Program-made: the position numbers and the translations under genes
Shown here: positions 2,056 to 28,604 of the stretch, in pieces
Layout of the letters: the number at the start of each line of letters is the position of its first letter
Numbering within the stretch: the first letter of the stretch is position 1
Notes under the pieces: generated by a model
Seen by the model: only the letters and a program-made list of their open reading frames with translations
Database searches by the model: none
What the model was told of the DNA's origin: nothing
DNA from: a virus
Length of the DNA stretch: 28,604 nt
Reading direction: 5' to 3' (one strand)
IMG/VR virus record: IMGVR_UViG_3300001749_000003
Coordinates: 27,931-56,534 of that record

Positions 2056-3366
2056 ATGAGCTTATACCCAGATCAAGTAAAAGCCAAAGAAGACTTTGAA
2101 GAATGGTTAGATGGTGGTAGCCTGACATGTGGGCTGTGGGCTGGTGCTGGTATGGGAAAGTCTCACATGGTTAAGCACCTGATTGATGAAGTGCTATCTG
2201 TCTCACCATACAAAGTAGTACTAACAAGCATGACTCATGCTGCTGTAGAGGTGCTTTCTAACCTAACTGGGCTAGATGTATCAACTCTGCACTCTACTAT
2301 GGGTTGGTTTCCTAAAACTGACAAGAATACAGGTGAAGAAACATTAAGTACACCTGAGATGCGTGGTAAAGACCCAAGATTAAGCAGAAACATGCTAGTT
2401 ATTGTTGATGAAGCTGGTTTAATGGGACACTTAGAGTGTAGATTATTAATTGAAGAAGCCAAAAAAGCTGGAGCTAGGTTGCTGTTTATTGGTGATAATA
2501 AGCAATGCTTTCCAGTGTTTAAGGAAGGTGATAAAGTTTGTATACCAGCTTATGACAGCACTGAGGTTTACCTGCAATTAACTATACCAAAGCGGCAGAA
2601 CAAAGGTGACGTAGTTTATGCACTGGCCCAAAGGTACAGGGCAACTGTAGATGGAGCCAGACAGCCAAAACTGCAAACTATGATGAACAGTGATTCTTCT
2701 GGTAAGGGTGTGGTGGTTGTTGATGATATTGAAGATGCCGCTTTTGAGGCATTTGACTGGGCTCAGAAAACTGACTGCATTAAGAAAGTTAAAGTGTTGG
2801 CATTTACTAACAAAAGATGCCTGACTTTGAATAGAAAGATTCGCAAAAAGGTGCTTGGATTATCAGATCCTACACCCACTATTGGCGAAGAAATGGTAGC
2901 TAATACTTCAATTACTGATGCAACTGGTGAGAATGAGTTAATAAGAAATAATGAAAGGTTAATAGTTGAATCAGTAGAGCCAACAGAAAGCAATGGTATG
3001 AGGGGAGCTTTCATCGGATTTGTGGGTGTAGGTGAACAAGTATTCGTACCAGAAAGCCCAACTAAGTTAGCTGAAAGATTAAAGCAACTAGCCAGTGAAG
3101 CTAAGTTAGCTAAAAGGCAAGGTAAGTCAAATGTTGCATCAAGCAAGTGGAGGTCACTGTTTAGCCTAAAAGATGCCTGTGCTGATATTAGGTTTACCTA
3201 TGCAATGACAGTTAATAAATGTCAAGGCAGTACACTGAAACAAGTACTAATTGATATGTATGATATTGATAGTTGTAGAGATACTGAACAGAAAGCTAGG
3301 TTGGCCTATACTGCAGTTTCAAGAGCTACAGATAAAGTTATAATAGAAGGTGAATTAAGCCACTAA
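2056..3366 (+). CDS. SF1 DNA helicase, Dda/RecD-like
   Basis: This 436-residue protein has superfamily 1 helicase motifs in order: Walker A GAGMGKS at residues 30-36, a TSMTHAA motif Ia near 57-63, Walker B VIVDEAG near 115-121, motif III FIGDNKQ near 144-150, a TVNKCQGST motif near 380, and AYTAVSRATDK near 420. Its length matches T4 Dda (about 439 residues). Dda is a 5'-3' helicase that helps start replication and removes proteins from DNA. The family match is strong. A direct role in replication initiation or recombination is inferred from it. GGAA precedes the start. It follows the paralogue array and is separated from the main replication genes by the lysis block. Confidence 0.88.
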   Translation: MSLYPDQVKAKEDFEEWLDGGSLTCGLWAGAGMGKSHMVKHLIDEVLSVSPYKVVLTSMTHAAVEVLSNLTGLDVSTLHSTMGWFPKTDKNTGEETLSTPEMRGKDPRLSRNMLVIVDEAGLMGHLECRLLIEEAKKAGARLLFIGDNKQCFPVFKEGDKVCIPAYDSTEVYLQLTIPKRQNKGDVVYALAQRYRATVDGARQPKLQTMMNSDSSGKGVVVVDDIEDAAFEAFDWAQKTDCIKKVKVLAFTNKRCLTLNRKIRKKVLGLSDPTPTIGEEMVANTSITDATGENELIRNNERLIVESVEPTESNGMRGAFIGFVGVGEQVFVPESPTKLAERLKQLASEAKLAKRQGKSNVASSKWRSLFSLKDACADIRFTYAMTVNKCQGSTLKQVLIDMYDIDSCRDTEQKARLAYTAVSRATDKVIIEGELSH

Positions 3367-3378
3367 CAAGGAAATATT

Positions 3379-3627
3379 ATGAACGGTAAGCAAGCAAAAA
3401 CACTAAGAAAAATCTCAGGTTTTGATAAGAGTCAAACCAACTATCAAGTAGCAAACAACTCTGAAAGAACTGAAGTAATACGAGATGTATTAGGCCAAAT
3501 AGTGGGAACTTATAAGACCTATACAATAATTAATACAGATGCAACCAAAGTAATGTATAAGAAGCTTAAGAAACACATGACCAAGACAGGTGAAATTGAT
3601 ATTGCCTTGGTTGTGGCACCCAAGTAA
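3379..3627 (+). CDS. Small basic hypothetical protein
   Basis: This gene encodes 82 residues with many lysines and begins MNGKQAKTLRKISGF behind AGGAAA. It has a 'VIRDVLGQIVGTYKTYTI' beta-rich middle and a YKKLKKHMTK basic stretch. I recall similar openings (MNGKQAKxLRK) in small uncharacterised proteins of other phages but cannot name a function. No membrane segment or cysteine pair is visible. It follows the helicase by 12 bases and is probably co-transcribed with it. Confidence 0.6.
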   Translation: MNGKQAKTLRKISGFDKSQTNYQVANNSERTEVIRDVLGQIVGTYKTYTIINTDATKVMYKKLKKHMTKTGEIDIALVVAPK

Positions 3628-3656
3628 GGTTGGATACTAATAGTAATACAGTTAGT

Positions 3657-3672
3657 GGAGGTTGTTATGTAA
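3657..3672 (+). promoter_or_regulatory. Possible start-stop element (ATG TAA) behind a strong ribosome binding site
   Basis: In the 122-bp gap after the gene at 3379, a perfect GGAGG (3657-3661) is followed at optimal spacing by ATG (3667-3669) and immediately by TAA (3670-3672). Minimal start-stop ORFs of this kind can stall or protect ribosomes upstream of a gene. It could equally be the remnant of a decayed small gene. No experimental support is available from sequence. Confidence 0.25.
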
Positions 3673-3749
3673 CACTTAACGTAATATTTATTTCAAAACC
3701 AGAAACATAAACTTAAAGAACTTAATTAATTAACTAAAGAGAAATTATT

Positions 3750-4067
3750 ATGAACGAATCAATTGTAGAAGTATTTGGCAAATTTGCAGTAGAACTTGGT
3801 GATGGCCCTGAGCTATTTGAAACAGTAGAAGAAGCACAGTTGGCACTATCTCAGTATGAAAATATTGAAGAGCACCAGAGTCTAGCAGATGGCTATTGTG
3901 CGTACAAAGGACTTACAGGCAAAGGTGCTAAAACTAAGTCTAACACTATTGTAGACTTCTTGAATTGGGTTGCTGCAGATCGACCAGAAGCACAGGAAGC
4001 AGAAGCCACTGCAGATGAAGTACCAGAAGAAAGTAGTTCTGAAGATATGAACGAAATAATCTTCTAA
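3750..4067 (+). CDS. Acidic hypothetical protein
   Basis: This gene encodes 105 residues. The first 75 are compact and mildly acidic. The last 30 are strongly acidic (EAQEAEATADEVPEESSSED) and end in IIF, so the protein finishes with an acidic tail and an aromatic residue, superficially like the tails of phage ssDNA-binding proteins. There is no OB-fold pattern I can defend, so this is only a resemblance. It stands alone between a 122-bp leader and a terminator-like hairpin at 4075, which suggests its own transcription unit. GAGAAA lies upstream of the start. A DNA-mimic or binding-partner role would be speculation. Confidence 0.6.
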   Translation: MNESIVEVFGKFAVELGDGPELFETVEEAQLALSQYENIEEHQSLADGYCAYKGLTGKGAKTKSNTIVDFLNWVAADRPEAQEAEATADEVPEESSSEDMNEIIF

Positions 4068-4074
4068 ATAATTA

Positions 4075-4098
4075 GCTCACCTCAGAAATGGGGTGGGC
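4075..4098 (+). terminator. Terminator-like hairpin
   Basis: GCTCACC (4075-4081) pairs with GGTGGGC (4092-4098), giving 7 base pairs including one U-G, around a 10-base loop. It is followed by AATTTAGGTTT, a weak T-rich tail. It lies in the gap between the acidic protein gene and the holin candidate. The short U-tract makes it a weak intrinsic terminator at best. Confidence 0.4.
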
Positions 4099-4129
4099 AA
4101 TTTAGGTTTACCAAGATTGAGAAACAACT

Positions 4130-4570
4130 ATGCTAAGTTACATAAAACTACTAATTAGTCCAGCAACAAAGCTGTTAGAAAAAGGTGTGGACTATGCAGA
4201 TACAAAACAGAAAATCAAAGCAGCCAAACAAGTAAGAGCTGATGAATTAGCAGCAGAAGTACACAAAAGTAAGATTAAATCAATTGAGTTGGGAGATCTT
4301 ACTAATGCTGAGCTAGATAAAACAGCAAACCAGCGCATGCCGTGGGCTGATGATCTAACTTATGCACTATGGTTAATACCAATACCACTAGCATTCTTTC
4401 CAAGCACTCTACCTCATGTAATAGCTGGCTTTGAGGCAATAGGTAACTTCCCAAAGGAGTATACTTACTCGCTTGGCATGATGATGATTAGTGTGTTTGG
4501 ATATAGAAAATTAGTACTACCAATTGTGGAGACAATAATATCAAAATCCTTAATAGGTCGGAAACATTAG
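4130..4570 (+). CDS. Holin candidate (GTA-holin-like architecture)
   Basis: This 146-residue protein opens with a short hydrophobic or amphipathic segment (LSYIKLLISPATKLL), followed by a charged alpha-helical region of about residues 22-65. Hydrophobic segments follow at about 77-92 (TYALWLIPIPLAFFPS) and 111-135 (YTYSLGMMMISVFGYRKLVLP). The order helix, 'PWADDLTYALW', two membrane spans and 'GYRK' resembles the GTA/3TM-type phage holin family. It lies 8 bases before the endolysin gene, the usual holin-endolysin arrangement. A holin would form the inner-membrane lesions that time lysis. The ribosome binding site is weak (GAG about 12 bases upstream), which is common for holins. An alternative is an unrelated membrane protein of the lysis block. 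Confidence 0.65.
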   Translation: MLSYIKLLISPATKLLEKGVDYADTKQKIKAAKQVRADELAAEVHKSKIKSIELGDLTNAELDKTANQRMPWADDLTYALWLIPIPLAFFPSTLPHVIAGFEAIGNFPKEYTYSLGMMMISVFGYRKLVLPIVETIISKSLIGRKH

Positions 4571-22709: not shown

Positions 22710-22916
22710 ATGAGTTATATTTCTAATCTAGATGAACATGAGATAGAAGTACTAAGAAATCATCTTGAAGGAAACTTCCAAGACTTCTCAAGATTTTGTT
22801 TTAAGATCTTAACTGGACAAGAACTAATATTTGTTGATTACTATGTTGTGTTGTTTGAAGCTATCCAGAAGTTGATAGACCAAACATGCACTAGGATGAT
22901 TATTAATATACCGCCT
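22710..22916 (+). CDS. terL: Terminase large subunit, exon 1 (N-terminal 69 residues)
   Basis: This exon begins at ATG 22710 with GGAG just upstream and encodes 69 residues ending TRMIINIPP. In terminases this hydrophobic strand leads straight into the ATP-binding Walker A loop, but here the reading frame meets TAA at 22917-22919. The missing residues (YSKRAGKT) appear in frame at 24038. The exon ends in ACCGCCT, which pairs with an internal guide-like sequence in the intron. The coding sequence is therefore join(22710..22916,24038..25450), 539 residues. Without splicing only a non-functional 69-residue peptide is made. Confidence 0.85.
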
Positions 22917-22935
22917 TAACCTATATCGGGGCGGT
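22910..22935 (+). other. Group I intron P1 helix at the 5' splice site
   Basis: Exon bases ACCGCCT (22910-22916) pair with intron bases GGGCGGT (22929-22935): six Watson-Crick pairs plus a terminal U22916-G22929 wobble. A U-G pair exactly at the 5' splice site is the hallmark of group I introns. The loop between is 12 bases. Confidence 0.8.
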
Positions 22936-24037
22936 CTAAACTCTTTTAATTCGATGAAACCTAAACATTTAGTTGTAGGCAATGTCGAGCTATAGTGAAT
23001 AAAGTAGCTAAAGTGTAGAGGTCAGTCCATTGTGGACGTAGGATGCAAGCGCATTCGAAACTTAGAGGTTAGCTAGAAGCTAACAAGACATGATCCAATC
23101 ACAGTAGAAATACTGGAGACTTTACAAGATGGAAATAGAAACTGATTACATATCAGAAAAGTATAAAGTGGGGAGCATACATTCAAATAGCTATGGCCCT
23201 ATTAAGATACTAGGTAGAAATAAATATAAACCCAGTGAATATAGAATAGAATTTTTAAATACTGGTAGTACTAGATTTGCATTAAGCGGTAATATAAAAA
23301 ATGATAATGTTAAGGATTATTATCAGCCAAATACGTTTGGGGTAGGTTACTTAGGAGATTTTGAGAAGGTTCCTAAGTCTAAACTACACAGAAGATTGTA
23401 CTTACTTTGGTCTAACATGTTATTAAGATGCTATGGTACAACGTACAACAATTCTGGAACAGTAAGCTATACGTATACAGATGTAACAGTTTGCCCAAGA
23501 TGGCTTAACTACAGCAACTTTTTCTTTAGTGTACAAGAGGTTAAAGGTTTTGACCTATGGCTAAAGGGTAATGAAGAATACCACTTAGACAAAGATAAGT
23601 CAGGATCTAGGTATTACTCACCAGAAACTTGTGAGTTTATAGACAGAAAAGAAAATATGGATTTGGCACACTTAAAGCAAAGAGTAGTAGCTAAACAGGC
23701 GTGGGTAGTTTATGTTGATGGCACACTTACCTTTGTTAGAGACTACATAAAGTTTGCTGAGCATACAGGGTTAAAAGCTTATGAGGTATTAAAACTTCTA
23801 AACGGAACACATAAGAAATGCAAAGGTTATATGTTGGCTGATGGTACTACTATGTATACGTTCTTGGTTGGGGGTGTAGAGTATAATTGCATACAATTTA
23901 CTGAACTGGCTACTAAGTACAACACCATGACCTCGGTATTTTGGAAGCTGGTTAGTGGTAAGAGAAACAGGTATAAAGATGTTAAATTTATTCGTAGTGA
24001 AGTCATTAAGGTTAGCGACCTTGAACAAAACGAATAG
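22917..24037 (+). mobile_element. Group I intron (1121 bp) inside terL, with an internal endonuclease ORF
   Basis: The boundaries follow from three independent signs. Exon fusion restores the terminase frame and Walker A motif, P1 has the U-G pair at the 5' site, and the last intron base is G24037 as required. The 212 bases before the ORF contain several stems: AGCTA/TAGCT (22988, 23005), GTCCA/TGGAC (23025, 23033), ATGC/GCAT (23043, 23051), GTTAGC/GCTAAC (23068, 23079) and CAGTA-GAAA-TACTG with a GNRA loop (23102-23115). TGTAGAGGTC (23014) can also pair with GACTTTACA (23118) with one bulge. I could not assign P3, P7 or P10 with certainty, so the subgroup is open. Confidence 0.8.
23129..24037 (+). 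CDS. Intron-encoded homing-endonuclease-like protein
   Basis: This 302-residue protein starts behind GGAG at 23115-23118. Residues 15-75 (GSIHSNSYGPIKILG then EFLNTG) and about 88-175 resemble a widespread phage HNH/homing-type family, with LLWSNMLLRCYG, VTVCPRWLNYSNF, LDKDKSGSRYYSP and CEFIDRKEN. The C-terminal part has two NUMOD/IENR-like DNA-binding repeats: one with FVRDYIKFAEHTGLKAYEVL and KGYM, and one with FTELATKYNTMTSVFWKLV. Catalytic residues cannot be assigned by eye. It would cut an intronless terL and spread the intron. The ribosome binding site lies in the predicted structured RNA, so its translation may be held down. Its stop codon supplies the intron's last base. Confidence 0.78.
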   Translation: MEIETDYISEKYKVGSIHSNSYGPIKILGRNKYKPSEYRIEFLNTGSTRFALSGNIKNDNVKDYYQPNTFGVGYLGDFEKVPKSKLHRRLYLLWSNMLLRCYGTTYNNSGTVSYTYTDVTVCPRWLNYSNFFFSVQEVKGFDLWLKGNEEYHLDKDKSGSRYYSPETCEFIDRKENMDLAHLKQRVVAKQAWVVYVDGTLTFVRDYIKFAEHTGLKAYEVLKLLNGTHKKCKGYMLADGTTMYTFLVGGVEYNCIQFTELATKYNTMTSVFWKLVSGKRNRYKDVKFIRSEVIKVSDLEQNE

Positions 24038-25450
24038 TACAGCAAGCGAGCTGGTAAAACATTAATTATATCTCAACTGTTACCACTATTTGCTTGGGTA
24101 AGAAATCCTAGCGGGCATACGATACTGACTGGCTTTAACTCTGATGTACTTGCTGAAAGTTCTGGCTACATTAGAACTATTATGTCAGATCCAGACTTTC
24201 AAAGAGTGTTTCCAGATGTTATTATTGACAACAACAAGAAGTCTGTTGAAAGATTAGGCACTATGAGTGCTGGTGTTATACATGCTATTCCCACAACTGG
24301 TAAGCTTACTGGTAAAGGGGCTGGTAGTTTGGCAGAAGGGTTTGCAGGCCTTATGTCTATTGACGATGTTATCAAACCTGATGATGCTAATTCGCCAACA
24401 GAGAGGGATAAGATCAATGCTAGATACTCTAACACACTACTATCCAGACTTAACTCTGTCACCACACCACTAGTTATCATTATGCAAAGACTACATGAAG
24501 AGGATCTGTGTGGTTACTTGATGAAAGGTGGTAGTAGTGATACATTCGCTTGGCTTAACATCCCAGGAATTATTACACCTGAGACAGGTTCTAAGGAATG
24601 GTATGATAAGATTATTGATATGTATGGCTACACTCATGTAGATCCTTTATATTATAAATTAAAAGAGGGTGAGCACAGGAAGTATGAGGAAAGAGATTTT
24701 CCAGTTCTGGGTTCCAATAAGACAGCTAAGCAATTAGTATCATCTTTCTGGCCAGTACGTAAGACACTGGATAGCTTACTTGGGCTACTTAAGAAAGATA
24801 GTTATACATTCTTCTCACAATATATGGGAATGCCTGTTGGTAAAGGTAAGTCAGCACTAACTAGTGACATGATAAACACCTATGAGTCTGTTGATACTAG
24901 AGATATAAGGTACACTTTTGTAACTGCTGATACTGCTTCCACAACAAAGACATATTCAGATTATACTGTAGCTTGTTTCTGGGGAGTTAGTAGAAGAAAA
25001 CAGTTATACCTGTTAGATGTTGTAATAGATAAATGGGAAACACCAGACTTAGTAATTGAAATGAGAAAGTTCTGGAAGCTGTGTAAGAAACAAAACAAAG
25101 CAAACCCCAACATGAAGCCAAGAGGTTTCTACATGGAAGATAAGTCTAGTGGCCTATTTCTAAATCAACAATTCCTGAAAGATGGGACTGTTAACGTTAA
25201 GCCAGTGCCTAGAGATGGGACTGGAAGTAACGACAAGTTCACTAGGTTTCTAAGTACTATACCATACTTTAAAGAAGGTAGAATACTACTTCCCAAGAAT
25301 CACGAACATTATATACACATGCGTAAAGAGTTACTTGGCCAAACTGCTTTTGGTTCTAGTACAGGTCATGATGACTTCGTGGATAATGTTTCAGATGCCA
25401 GCGTTATAGCTTTTGATGCTAAAAGTATGAACTATGATGATTGGTCATAA
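24038..25450 (+). CDS. terL: Terminase large subunit, exon 2 (ATPase and nuclease)
   Basis: This exon has no start codon of its own and continues exon 1 in frame, encoding residues 70-539. Walker A SKRAGKT (71-77) resembles the SRQLGKT form of T4 gp17. Walker B is GLMSIDD (173-179), and the coupling motif VIIMQRLHEEDLCGYL lies at about 215-229. The RNase H-like nuclease shows FVTADTAST (D367), FYMEDKSSG (E436) and GHDDFVDN (513-520). It translocates DNA into the head and cuts the concatemer. An in-frame ATG at 24182 would give a product without the ATP-binding loop, so it is not a plausible start. Confidence 0.93.
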   Translation, partial: YSKRAGKTLIISQLLPLFAWVRNPSGHTILTGFNSDVLAESSGYIRTIMSDPDFQRVFPDVIIDNNKKSVERLGTMSAGVIHAIPTTGKLTGKGAGSLAEGFAGLMSIDDVIKPDDANSPTERDKINARYSNTLLSRLNSVTTPLVIIMQRLHEEDLCGYLMKGGSSDTFAWLNIPGIITPETGSKEWYDKIIDMYGYTHVDPLYYKLKEGEHRKYEERDFPVLGSNKTAKQLVSSFWPVRKTLDSLLGLLKKDSYTFFSQYMGMPVGKGKSALTSDMINTYESVDTRDIRYTFVTADTASTTKTYSDYTVACFWGVSRRKQLYLLDVVIDKWETPDLVIEMRKFWKLCKKQNKANPNMKPRGFYMEDKSSGLFLNQQFLKDGTVNVKPVPRDGTGSNDKFTRFLSTIPYFKEGRILLPKNHEHYIHMRKELLGQTAFGSSTGHDDFVDNVSDASVIAFDAKSMNYDDWS

Positions 25451-25889: not shown

Positions 25890-27575
25890 ATGGATTTACT
25901 GTTAAGTAATAAGATAACTAGTTACTTTGTACATAAAATAAAAACCATTGTTGTAGATCCTATCTTATACTCCCTACTAAGTTCAGTTGGCCCATTTACA
26001 TTTACTAGGTTAGGTGAGCAATCATTTTCAGACTATGAAGATACTGTAAAGAAAGTTGAGACAGATATACCATCTTTCGTTGGCACTAGGCAGGTTGAAA
26101 ATGAGCTAAGAGATAGGGCATTAAATTACTGGGTAGCTACAAGTGGTGCAACTTTTGTTGATAATGGGGATGGTTCTATAAGAGCTACCTTGCCTGCTGG
26201 TGGTGGTGTATATAAAAGAACTTCTTCATTAAAGGCGGCAGGCAGTGAGTTTCGACTTAGTTCAGAAGCTTTGCATGTTAGCGGATCTACTAATGATTTA
26301 AGGATACAAGATTCTGGGGGCTATACAGGAATATTGTTGTCAGGTATTAATGAGTTAATAGGTGATGAGTATGTAAGAATATCACCAGATACAGGAACTT
26401 TAATACAAGATGCTACAGTGGGTGTATGGTGGAGAAATGCGGGAACTACTGAAATAGTATTTGACATTAGAAACACCCAAATAGAAGATGTTACAGGAGA
26501 GATAAATAAAAACCCATCTGAATTTGTTGTGGATACTGGACACTTCACAACATTGAATGGTAATACTGTAGATGTAAATGGATTAGTTACTGAAAGTACA
26601 GGTGCAGAAATAGTTGGTTCAGGTGGTGTACTACTAGAGGGTGTTGGAACAAACAAGTTACTTTATAGTGAAGACTTTACAGATGCTGAATGGAACAAAG
26701 CTACAACTACTGTTGAGCTAGCATCAGTTGAGGCACCAGATGGAACACTTACAGCATTTAAAGTGTCTGGATCTGGCTACTTAGCCGCACAAGGTACTTC
26801 ACTTCCTGGGGACAATAAAAGTATATGGGCAAGAACTGTAACTGGTACTGGGTTTGCAAATGTATTAGTCCACAATGGTAACAATAAACTAACAGAACTA
26901 ACAGAGGTATGGAAAAGAATATCATTTAATTACGAAGATGATGCCAATTTTCCATCTAACTTCTACGCTGCAGATTTAAGATCTGGTGATCTTACTGAAT
27001 TTTATATATGGGGTGCGCAACTAGAAGCAAAGAAATATTATACGTCTTATACTAAAACTTCTGGAACAACTGTAACAAGATCTGCTACAAGCTTGACTGC
27101 AAGCTTGTCAACTATTGGTGTTCCAAACCTAAGAAACAACTTTAGTGGTCAGATTAAAGTAAGACCTCAATTTGACTATGATGATGCCAGAGTAAACTTC
27201 TCTAGGCCACTAGCAATAGAATCAGATGATGGTGCTTATTTACTTGCCATTATTTTTAACCCAGCTTCTGATAGGGTGTATATTAGGATGGACAATAATG
27301 GTATTGTATCTGAAACAAGCTACTTAGTTGGTTCAATAAACTATGCTAGGGACGAACTGTTAAACATAAGGTTTTCAAAGAATAATAGTTCTGGGTTAAA
27401 GATGTGGATTAACAATATCACACCAGTTGTAAATGGAGATACAAGCGCTAAAACTGACTATGTCAGTCCACTAACAAAAGTGGAAGTGGGGTCTGGTTTA
27501 GACTCAGAGGTATTTGAATCTATTGTTATTCACCCAACAGCACTTAGTGATATAGAATTGGAAGCACTAACATGA
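25890..27575 (+). CDS. Head spike fibre / tail-spike-like protein with LamG-like C-terminus
   Basis: This 561-residue protein has no membrane segment. After an N-terminal part of about 70 residues that may attach to the virion, there are beta-rich repeats. A carbohydrate-binding-like domain at about 255-400 starts NKLLYSEDFTDAEWNKATTT and ends FYIWGAQLEAKKYYTSYTKT, the pattern called phage head spike fibre domain. The last 150 residues resemble a LamG/concanavalin-like lectin fold (AYLLAIIFNPASDRVYIRMD then LKMWINN and a final HPTALSDIELEAL). It probably binds host surface glycans. It lies between terL and the portal gene, and its stop overlaps the next start. Confidence 0.72.
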   Translation: MDLLLSNKITSYFVHKIKTIVVDPILYSLLSSVGPFTFTRLGEQSFSDYEDTVKKVETDIPSFVGTRQVENELRDRALNYWVATSGATFVDNGDGSIRATLPAGGGVYKRTSSLKAAGSEFRLSSEALHVSGSTNDLRIQDSGGYTGILLSGINELIGDEYVRISPDTGTLIQDATVGVWWRNAGTTEIVFDIRNTQIEDVTGEINKNPSEFVVDTGHFTTLNGNTVDVNGLVTESTGAEIVGSGGVLLEGVGTNKLLYSEDFTDAEWNKATTTVELASVEAPDGTLTAFKVSGSGYLAAQGTSLPGDNKSIWARTVTGTGFANVLVHNGNNKLTELTEVWKRISFNYEDDANFPSNFYAADLRSGDLTEFYIWGAQLEAKKYYTSYTKTSGTTVTRSATSLTASLSTIGVPNLRNNFSGQIKVRPQFDYDDARVNFSRPLAIESDDGAYLLAIIFNPASDRVYIRMDNNGIVSETSYLVGSINYARDELLNIRFSKNNSSGLKMWINNITPVVNGDTSAKTDYVSPLTKVEVGSGLDSEVFESIVIHPTALSDIELEALT

Positions 27576-28051
27576 GTGATGTAGTAAACATACTTTTAGT
27601 ATTAAAAGGTAGCAAGAAAGATCAACTAGGTAAATATAAAAATAATAGAGGTTTAGATATAGATCAAGACAACTTACTAGAAGATATATTAAGTCATCCA
27701 GATGTTAATCACGCTGGCTTCAATAGCAGTTTTAAAGTTGGTGCTGGTATGTTGGAGTGGTTTACATACTCAATATACATACACATAGACTCAGACAGAC
27801 TACAAAAACTGCTTGATTGGGTAGAATCTAAACCAAGTGATGCTAAGATATGTGGCTCTTGGAACATGGATGGATCTAAGTATAAAGGTAGTAATGGTAA
27901 GGTAAAACATAAAACTATTTCTGGGCTACTAGCTGGGTTTGTACCTAACAAAGTAGTCTACAATACAGATGGTGATGAAACTAGCAACACTGTTGCTACA
28001 GAACCAGAACAAGTAAACCTGTTAGCAGGTCAGAAACCAAGAGAATTTTAA
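27572..28051 (+). CDS. Hypothetical protein coupled to the spike gene
   Basis: This gene encodes 159 residues, starting by ATGA overlap with the spike gene. Visible stretches are VVNILLVLKGSKKDQLGKYK, EWFTYSIYIHIDSDRLQKLL and 'AKICGSWNMDGSKYKGSNGK'. There is no membrane span, cysteine cluster or enzyme motif. A chaperone, spike assembly factor or minor virion protein are possible from context. No family recognised. Its distance to the portal gene is 20 bases. Confidence 0.6.
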   Translation: MSDVVNILLVLKGSKKDQLGKYKNNRGLDIDQDNLLEDILSHPDVNHAGFNSSFKVGAGMLEWFTYSIYIHIDSDRLQKLLDWVESKPSDAKICGSWNMDGSKYKGSNGKVKHKTISGLLAGFVPNKVVYNTDGDETSNTVATEPEQVNLLAGQKPREF

Positions 28052-28071
28052 CTTGGTAATAAGGAGTTACT

Positions 28072-28604
28072 ATGAAGAGTGATGTAAGTCAATCTGATGT
28101 AGTTATTTCCAAACAATCTAATATGGCTACACTACAAGATGGCCTTACCAACCTAGCAACTGGCCTTGGTGGTACTCAAGATAAAGCTACCTTCAATCAG
28201 TGGAATCACTCTGGACGTAATTTTGATCATGTTACCCTATCAGCACGCTATCGTGAATGCTGGTTAAGCCAGAAAGTTTGTAAGATAGTCCCACAAGATA
28301 TGACTAGGGAGTGGCGCAAGTTTAACTCTAAGTTAGCTCAAGAGGCCGACAAAGAATTTGAAGTTGATAGCTTGTTCAGGGAAGCTTACAAGTGGGCTAG
28401 GTTGTACGGTACTAGTTTTATTGTACTAGATATTGATGATGGAAGAACTACAGATAAACCTGTAAATTGGAAGAGGTTAAAAGAAGGATGTTTAAGATCC
28501 ATGCATGTTGTGGATAGAACCAGAATAGTAACCTTAGGTGAGATTGATCAGAAACCTATGAGTGTTACATTCGGCATGCCTGACCACTACCAATTCGTGA
28601 ACAC
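28072..28604 (+). CDS. Portal protein, DUF1073 type (3'-truncated by the window edge)
   Basis: ATG 28072 follows AGGAG at 28062-28066. The frame stays open for 177 codons to the window end. The visible part matches the DUF1073 phage portal family: LTNLATGLGGTQDKATFNQW, ARYRECWLSQKVCKIVPQDM, TREWRKF and AYKWARLYGTSFIVLDIDDG. Portals of this family form the dodecameric DNA channel at one head vertex and dock the terminase encoded upstream. The family is found in several podo- and siphovirus-type phages but not in T7. About 60-65 percent of the protein is probably missing from this window. Confidence 0.88.
   Translation, partial: MKSDVSQSDVVISKQSNMATLQDGLTNLATGLGGTQDKATFNQWNHSGRNFDHVTLSARYRECWLSQKVCKIVPQDMTREWRKFNSKLAQEADKEFEVDSLFREAYKWARLYGTSFIVLDIDDGRTTDKPVNWKRLKEGCLRSMHVVDRTRIVTLGEIDQKPMSVTFGMPDHYQFVN

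Follow-up and report, generated by a model that had tools for sequence, protein, structure and literature searches.

Terminase locus and virus record

The gene of the large terminase subunit (TerL) lies on the plus strand of the window, i.e. the whole stretch of 28,604 nucleotides analysed here, and is divided into two exons by an insert of 1130 nt. Exon 1 (22710-22916) encodes 69 aa ending in RMIINIPP, aligns with 62-75% identity to exon 1 of ten relatives, and runs into an in-frame TAA formed by the first three bases of the insert. Exon 2 (24047-25450) encodes 467 aa that begin with RAGKTL and include the terminase 6C nuclease domain; it was assigned to the terminase large subunit by both PHROGs (phrog_38, E 2.4e-71) and Pfam (PF17289, above cut-off). 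The insert (22917-24046, plus strand) starts with UAACC, ends in G24046 and carries the open reading frame of an HNH homing endonuclease; an empty-site alignment to 32 relatives and a covariance model match point to a group I intron. An intein was considered and rejected, given the stop codon at the first bases of the insert, which is not an in-frame protein.

The window forms the last part of a 56,534-base record of an uncultured, metagenomic virus. Although this record is classed as linear, its ends repeat each other (window 25917-28604 versus G000:C1:1-2688, 2604 identical bases followed by a few mismatches), and it therefore probably represents a single unit of about 53.8 kb that is circularly permuted. 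Among cultured phages, the TerL sequences nearest to that of the window (48-50%) are those of Vibrio phage VPs20, Escherichia phage 4HA13 and phiEcoM-GJ1, members of the Chaseviridae.

Just beyond the window, the portal gene of this phage is likewise split by a group I intron that contains a related HNH ORF (L085, G000:C1, about 3045-3870; ORF 3281-3847), and this intron scored 63 bits with the Rfam group I model RF00028. The portal gene of relatives is unbroken and reads ...KDLI-WEYLK.... At the predicted junction, the exon would end in GACTTGAT with a P1 helix ACUUGAU/GUCAAGU. An origin of the TerL intron by intragenomic duplication from the portal intron is not favoured, as the two endonucleases share just 35% identity.

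Splice junctions and restored reading frame

Excision of positions 22917-24046 yields a single TerL frame of 536 aa. The original prediction had placed the intron end at G24037, with TerL split between NIPP and YSKRAGKT and a spliced product of 539 residues; the interruption at Walker A proved real and removal of the intron does restore one terminase frame, but both the junction and the length had to be revised. An IMG/VR search with exon 2 recovered eleven near relatives (66-75% identity) with a full-length, uninterrupted TerL, and a second search with exon 1 returned 34 loci, in 32 of which PP and RAGK are directly joined. In these 32 uninterrupted relatives spanning the site, the protein reads NIPP|RAGKT with zero residues between. 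The DNA of the near relatives from the exon 2 search, aligned to the spliced version proposed originally, lacks nine bases between exon 1 and CGAGCTGG. Therefore, TACAGCAAG (24038-24046) is part of the intron and TerL comprises 536 aa. A distant locus among the 34 (L155) reads NIPPRYGKT and is likewise uninterrupted. Another one, L153, situated on the same contig as L014, encodes around position 3183 a TerL without approximately 20 residues covering Walker A, the frame being maintained; the assembly could be wrong at this point, or the gene could be defective.

It is scarcely credible that the same intron uses G24037 as its 3' splice site and inserts YSK before RAGKT. The frame would stay open and the intron would also end in G, but the 32 spanning relatives have no residues at this place, and P10 would be reduced to 1 bp, as against 3 bp with G24046. 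This P10 would pair the intron strand UCG (22926-22928, plus strand), located just 5' of the guide sequence, with CGA (24047-24049) of the 3' exon. Among the scanned candidates that end in G and keep the frame, only G24046 restores the family sequence. Walker A of the spliced TerL hence reads NIPPRAGKT and not PPYSKRAGKT, the "YSK" before RAGKT being an artefact that arises when the intron is ended at 24037. This illustrates how false residues enter an active site if the 3' splice site is misplaced.

Predicted ribozyme core

All helices described here lie on the plus strand. The 7-bp P1 with a U-G pair and a guide at 22929-22935 was present as originally proposed: exon bases ACCGCCU (22910-22916) pair with GGGCGGU (22929-22935), the U-G pair is located at the 5' splice site, and the helix (22910-22935), seen in the sequence and in the minimum free energy (MFE) fold, folds by itself at -11 kcal/mol. 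The 5' strand of P3, CUCU (22941-22944), pairs with AGAG (23064-23067) and covaries in alignment A5; only four P3 pairs are clear, a pattern also seen in L082 and L083. P4 (UCGAUG 22951-22956/UGUCGA 22983-22988) encloses P5 (CCUA 22960-22963/UAGG 22976-22979), so that both together occupy 22951-22988, and in the alignment 100% and 93% of the cells of P4 and P5, respectively, are paired with both sides changing. P6 (GC 22989-22990/GU 23013-23014), with the P6a loop, spans 22989-23014 according to the alignment.

The 5' strand of P7, GAGGUCA (23018-23024), contains a bulged A23019 and the guanosine-binding site G23020-C23095, and is compensatory relative to ACGACUA of other phage introns; its 3' strand UGAUCC follows J8/7 (AAGACA) at 23085-23096 as placed by the alignment and the covariance model. 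Two peripheral, IA-like hairpins, P7.1 (GUCCA-UUG-UGGAC) and P7.2 (GGAUGC-AAGC-GCAUUC), are predicted at 23025-23056, and P8 (GUUAGCU-AGA-AGCUAAC) at 23068-23084; region 23018-23100 alone folds into P7, P7.1, P7.2 and P8 (MFE, z -2.8). P9 (CAGUA-GAAA-UACUG, 23102-23115) carries a GNRA loop and was obtained by alignment, covariance model and MFE fold. A terminal stem AUUCGU/ACGAAU (23990-23995/24030-24035, thus 23990-24035) is weakly predicted by MFE folding (z -1.6), and the MFE of the whole 5' part was not significant (z -1.4).

The insert thus combines a P1 with U-G pair and guide, P4-P6 and P3-P9 domains, a P7 with bulge and G-C pair, a terminal G (G24046) and a possible P10, all of them characteristic of group I introns. 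Introns of subgroup IA have two hairpins, P7.1 and P7.2, that separate P7 from P3, and the predicted presence of both suggests an IA-like intron.

Detection of the core and the altered P7

The Rfam covariance search recommended together with the original prediction was negative as such: nothing relevant was found in the window at the gathering threshold or in the region at E 10, and RF00028 did not match. P7 here is GAGGUCA/UGAUCC, as compared to ACGACUA/UAGUCU in other introns (in one of them ACGACCA/UGGUCU); in three pairs both partners are exchanged and a fourth is now G-U, while the bulge and the G-C pair are kept. RF00028 models P7 as unpaired conserved letters and misses this intron because the compensatory changes then cost bits. 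The TerL introns in T7-like phages of Salmonella and Edwardsiella reached 45 and 41 bits with RF00028, below the cut-off but with E 5e-9 and 1e-7. The RF00028 cut-off concerns detection and does not define a group I intron.

P3-P9 were placed by hand alignment to the Salmonella and Edwardsiella TerL introns. Covariation was assessed for 29 core pairs in 11 introns aligned by plain MAFFT. Both sides are changed in 20 of these pairs, versus an average of 11.2 in shuffles and 1-5 in slid structures; 94.6% of the cells are paired, versus 29-48% in the slid controls, which are biased in favour of the structure as it had been drawn up on the same sequences. RNAalifold predicted P3, P4, P5, P6 and P9 unaided.

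A covariance model (R1) built from ten phage introns, leaving out that of the window and treating P7 as pairs, was searched against the entire 56.5-kb record to which the window belongs. It matched 22938-23118 with 82.2 bits and, by rough calibration, an E-value of about 1e-27. In this record, only the portal intron, a member of the training set, scored higher, and the next match below had 11.9 bits. Across 13 first relatives, R1 found nothing comparable. A core descriptor, built post hoc, had the intron as its single match and gave none in 60 simulated strands. Searches for DNA relatives of the intron among phages and plasmids gave short chance matches only, and its exact pattern was not found in IMG/VR.

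A decayed, non-splicing intron or a selfish endonuclease insertion, with TerL made as two chains or the genome being defective, is very improbable. The weak P3 and the unusual P7 sequence might point in this direction, but every core helix pairs, and the P7 changes are compensatory and do not resemble decay. Moreover, the 302-aa ORF and both TerL exons are all open, and exon 1 alone lacks RAGKT.

Intron-encoded HNH endonuclease

The ORF at 23129-24037 (plus strand) encodes 302 aa and matches the profile of the HNH homing endonuclease family phrog_2081 (E 1.7e-45); the match to the I-HmuI NUMOD-like domain PF22083 (E 0.009) reached 16 bits and remained below the cut-off of 27. Members of the phrog_2081 family have been found in introns that interrupt DNA polymerase genes of Bastillevirinae (PMC11878797). 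The stop codon of the ORF precedes the 3' splice site by nine bases. Its last codons can double as the terminal intron stem (23990-24037), and similar overlaps seem to exist in L083 and L084. A GGAG ahead of the start codon overlaps the end of P9, which may limit translation of the endonuclease.

The AlphaFold model of the endonuclease is of low confidence (pLDDT 67.5), being poor in the C-terminal third, and no PDB nuclease was matched by sequence or by the fold of this model. A single-sequence search of IMG/VR gave no close relatives, while an alignment-based search gave 12 loci, only some of which are TerL introns; none of nine endonuclease neighbourhoods inspected in phage records is annotated as interrupting a terminase gene. 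The relatives in Salmonella and Edwardsiella phages are likewise located within group I introns in TerL.

Proposed mechanism and significance

We conclude with high confidence, on the basis of sequence comparison and structure prediction, that 22917-24046 is an IA-like group I homing intron, with predicted splicing of 22916 to 24047 and predicted mobilisation by its HNH endonuclease. The original assignment as a group I homing intron is thereby upheld by the complete P1-P9 core, the compensatory P7, an HNH protein whose family is known for homing, and closest relatives that lack the intron. As expected for a mobile homing intron, alleles with and without the intron exist at one and the same site, 32 of them being empty. 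The intron is probably active; splicing, GTP use, cleavage and homing are what we infer from the sequence. In the TerL transcript, the intron would fold into the P1-P9 ribozyme and use GTP bound in P7 for the cut after U22916, and the joining of 22916 to 24047 would produce NIPP-RAGKT and the 536-aa terminase. In mixed infections, the HNH endonuclease probably cuts intronless TerL near codon 69, and repair of the cut gene would copy the intron in. Intron endonucleases are reported to be able to decide the contest between co-infecting phages (PMC11620839).

Without splicing, the TerL frame ends at codon 69, this phage has an intron in its portal gene as well, and a "molecular-on-switch" hypothesis has already been published for phage introns (PMC11878797). 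These observations would fit a regulated switch in which timed splicing restricts the terminase to the late phase and gates packaging. However, the intron is patchily distributed and absent in 32 relatives, as would suit a mobile element on which the phage does not depend, and we regard such a switch as improbable.

With respect to the homing intron proposed here, a more far-reaching hypothesis is that both ATPase motifs of TerL, Walker A and Walker B, have been reached by homing time and again, across unrelated phages, by a single lineage of HNH introns, with guide and endonuclease target changing together. The active site of the packaging motor would then be a shared landing pad, and the TerL and portal introns of this phage would make packaging dependent on splicing. 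We consider this speculative and rather doubtful. Related phages with intron sites at Walker A and Walker B offer a clean system for studying how homing introns change their targets. Since the standard Rfam search can overlook a phage group I intron whose P7 has been rewritten, viral metagenomes may hold more introns than are counted, and gene calls in them may likewise fall short.

Comparison with other terminase introns

Introns in TerL are already known, and the HNH intron in Walker A described here is a mobile intron of a familiar kind. According to a review, residues critical for function are often encoded at homing sites, terminases are among the targets, and P7 is diagnostic (PMC3984707). 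This agrees with the original rationale that a conserved target is favoured, as do the other TerL introns found at Walker A and Walker B. In the open-access literature, we found no paper that connects a group I intron with Walker A of a terminase.

TerL introns were described in LL-H and Moonbeam (PMC4299906) and in five of 52 Bastillevirinae (PMC11878797), and that of SIOphi, one of the latter, was spliced in vitro and in vivo (PMC11878797). All of these are group I introns in TerL like the one studied here, but are associated with other endonuclease families. The introns of the I-HmuI family in SPO1-like phages share an HNH protein with NUMOD-like C-terminus, but reside in the DNA polymerase gene, and the respective Pfam match is below cut-off here. 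TerL introns are also present in the Walker A region of Vibrio phage qdvp001 and near Walker B of Aeromonas phage 2L372D, both locations being approximate.

TerL intron 1 of Shewanella phage KASIA (MZ568826) is a group I intron as well (R1, 60.8 bits), and splicing of the KASIA TerL intron in infected cells was demonstrated by RT-PCR (PMC8541194). Judging from the terminal G and P1, it would split Walker A at GRA-YGKT. In contrast to our phage, KASIA belongs to another lineage with another TerL, and the HNH gene resides in its second TerL intron. In the DNA polymerase gene of KASIA (L156, 10300-12320), R1 detected three group I core pieces, consistent with the annotated introns.

The Autographiviridae Salmonella phages CHRF_10025 and Vi06 and Edwardsiella phage vB_EtA_DT115P1 share with our virus a TerL group I intron with a phrog_2081-type HNH protein (38% identical to that of the window), but their introns have a canonical P7 and occupy the Walker B site (ADD|VE or ADD|IE). 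In the close relative L147 (IMGVR_UViG_3300003691_000288), whose TerL is 79% identical over the first 176 residues and also carries a homologous HNH group I intron (3529-4415; R1, 126 bits), Walker A is intact and this intron is located at Walker B (IDD|VIKP). A common origin of the L147 intron and that of the window may be considered, but the pairing of their endonucleases has a support of only 89/88. This Walker B site is the same one that is used in the unrelated, T7-like Autographiviridae.
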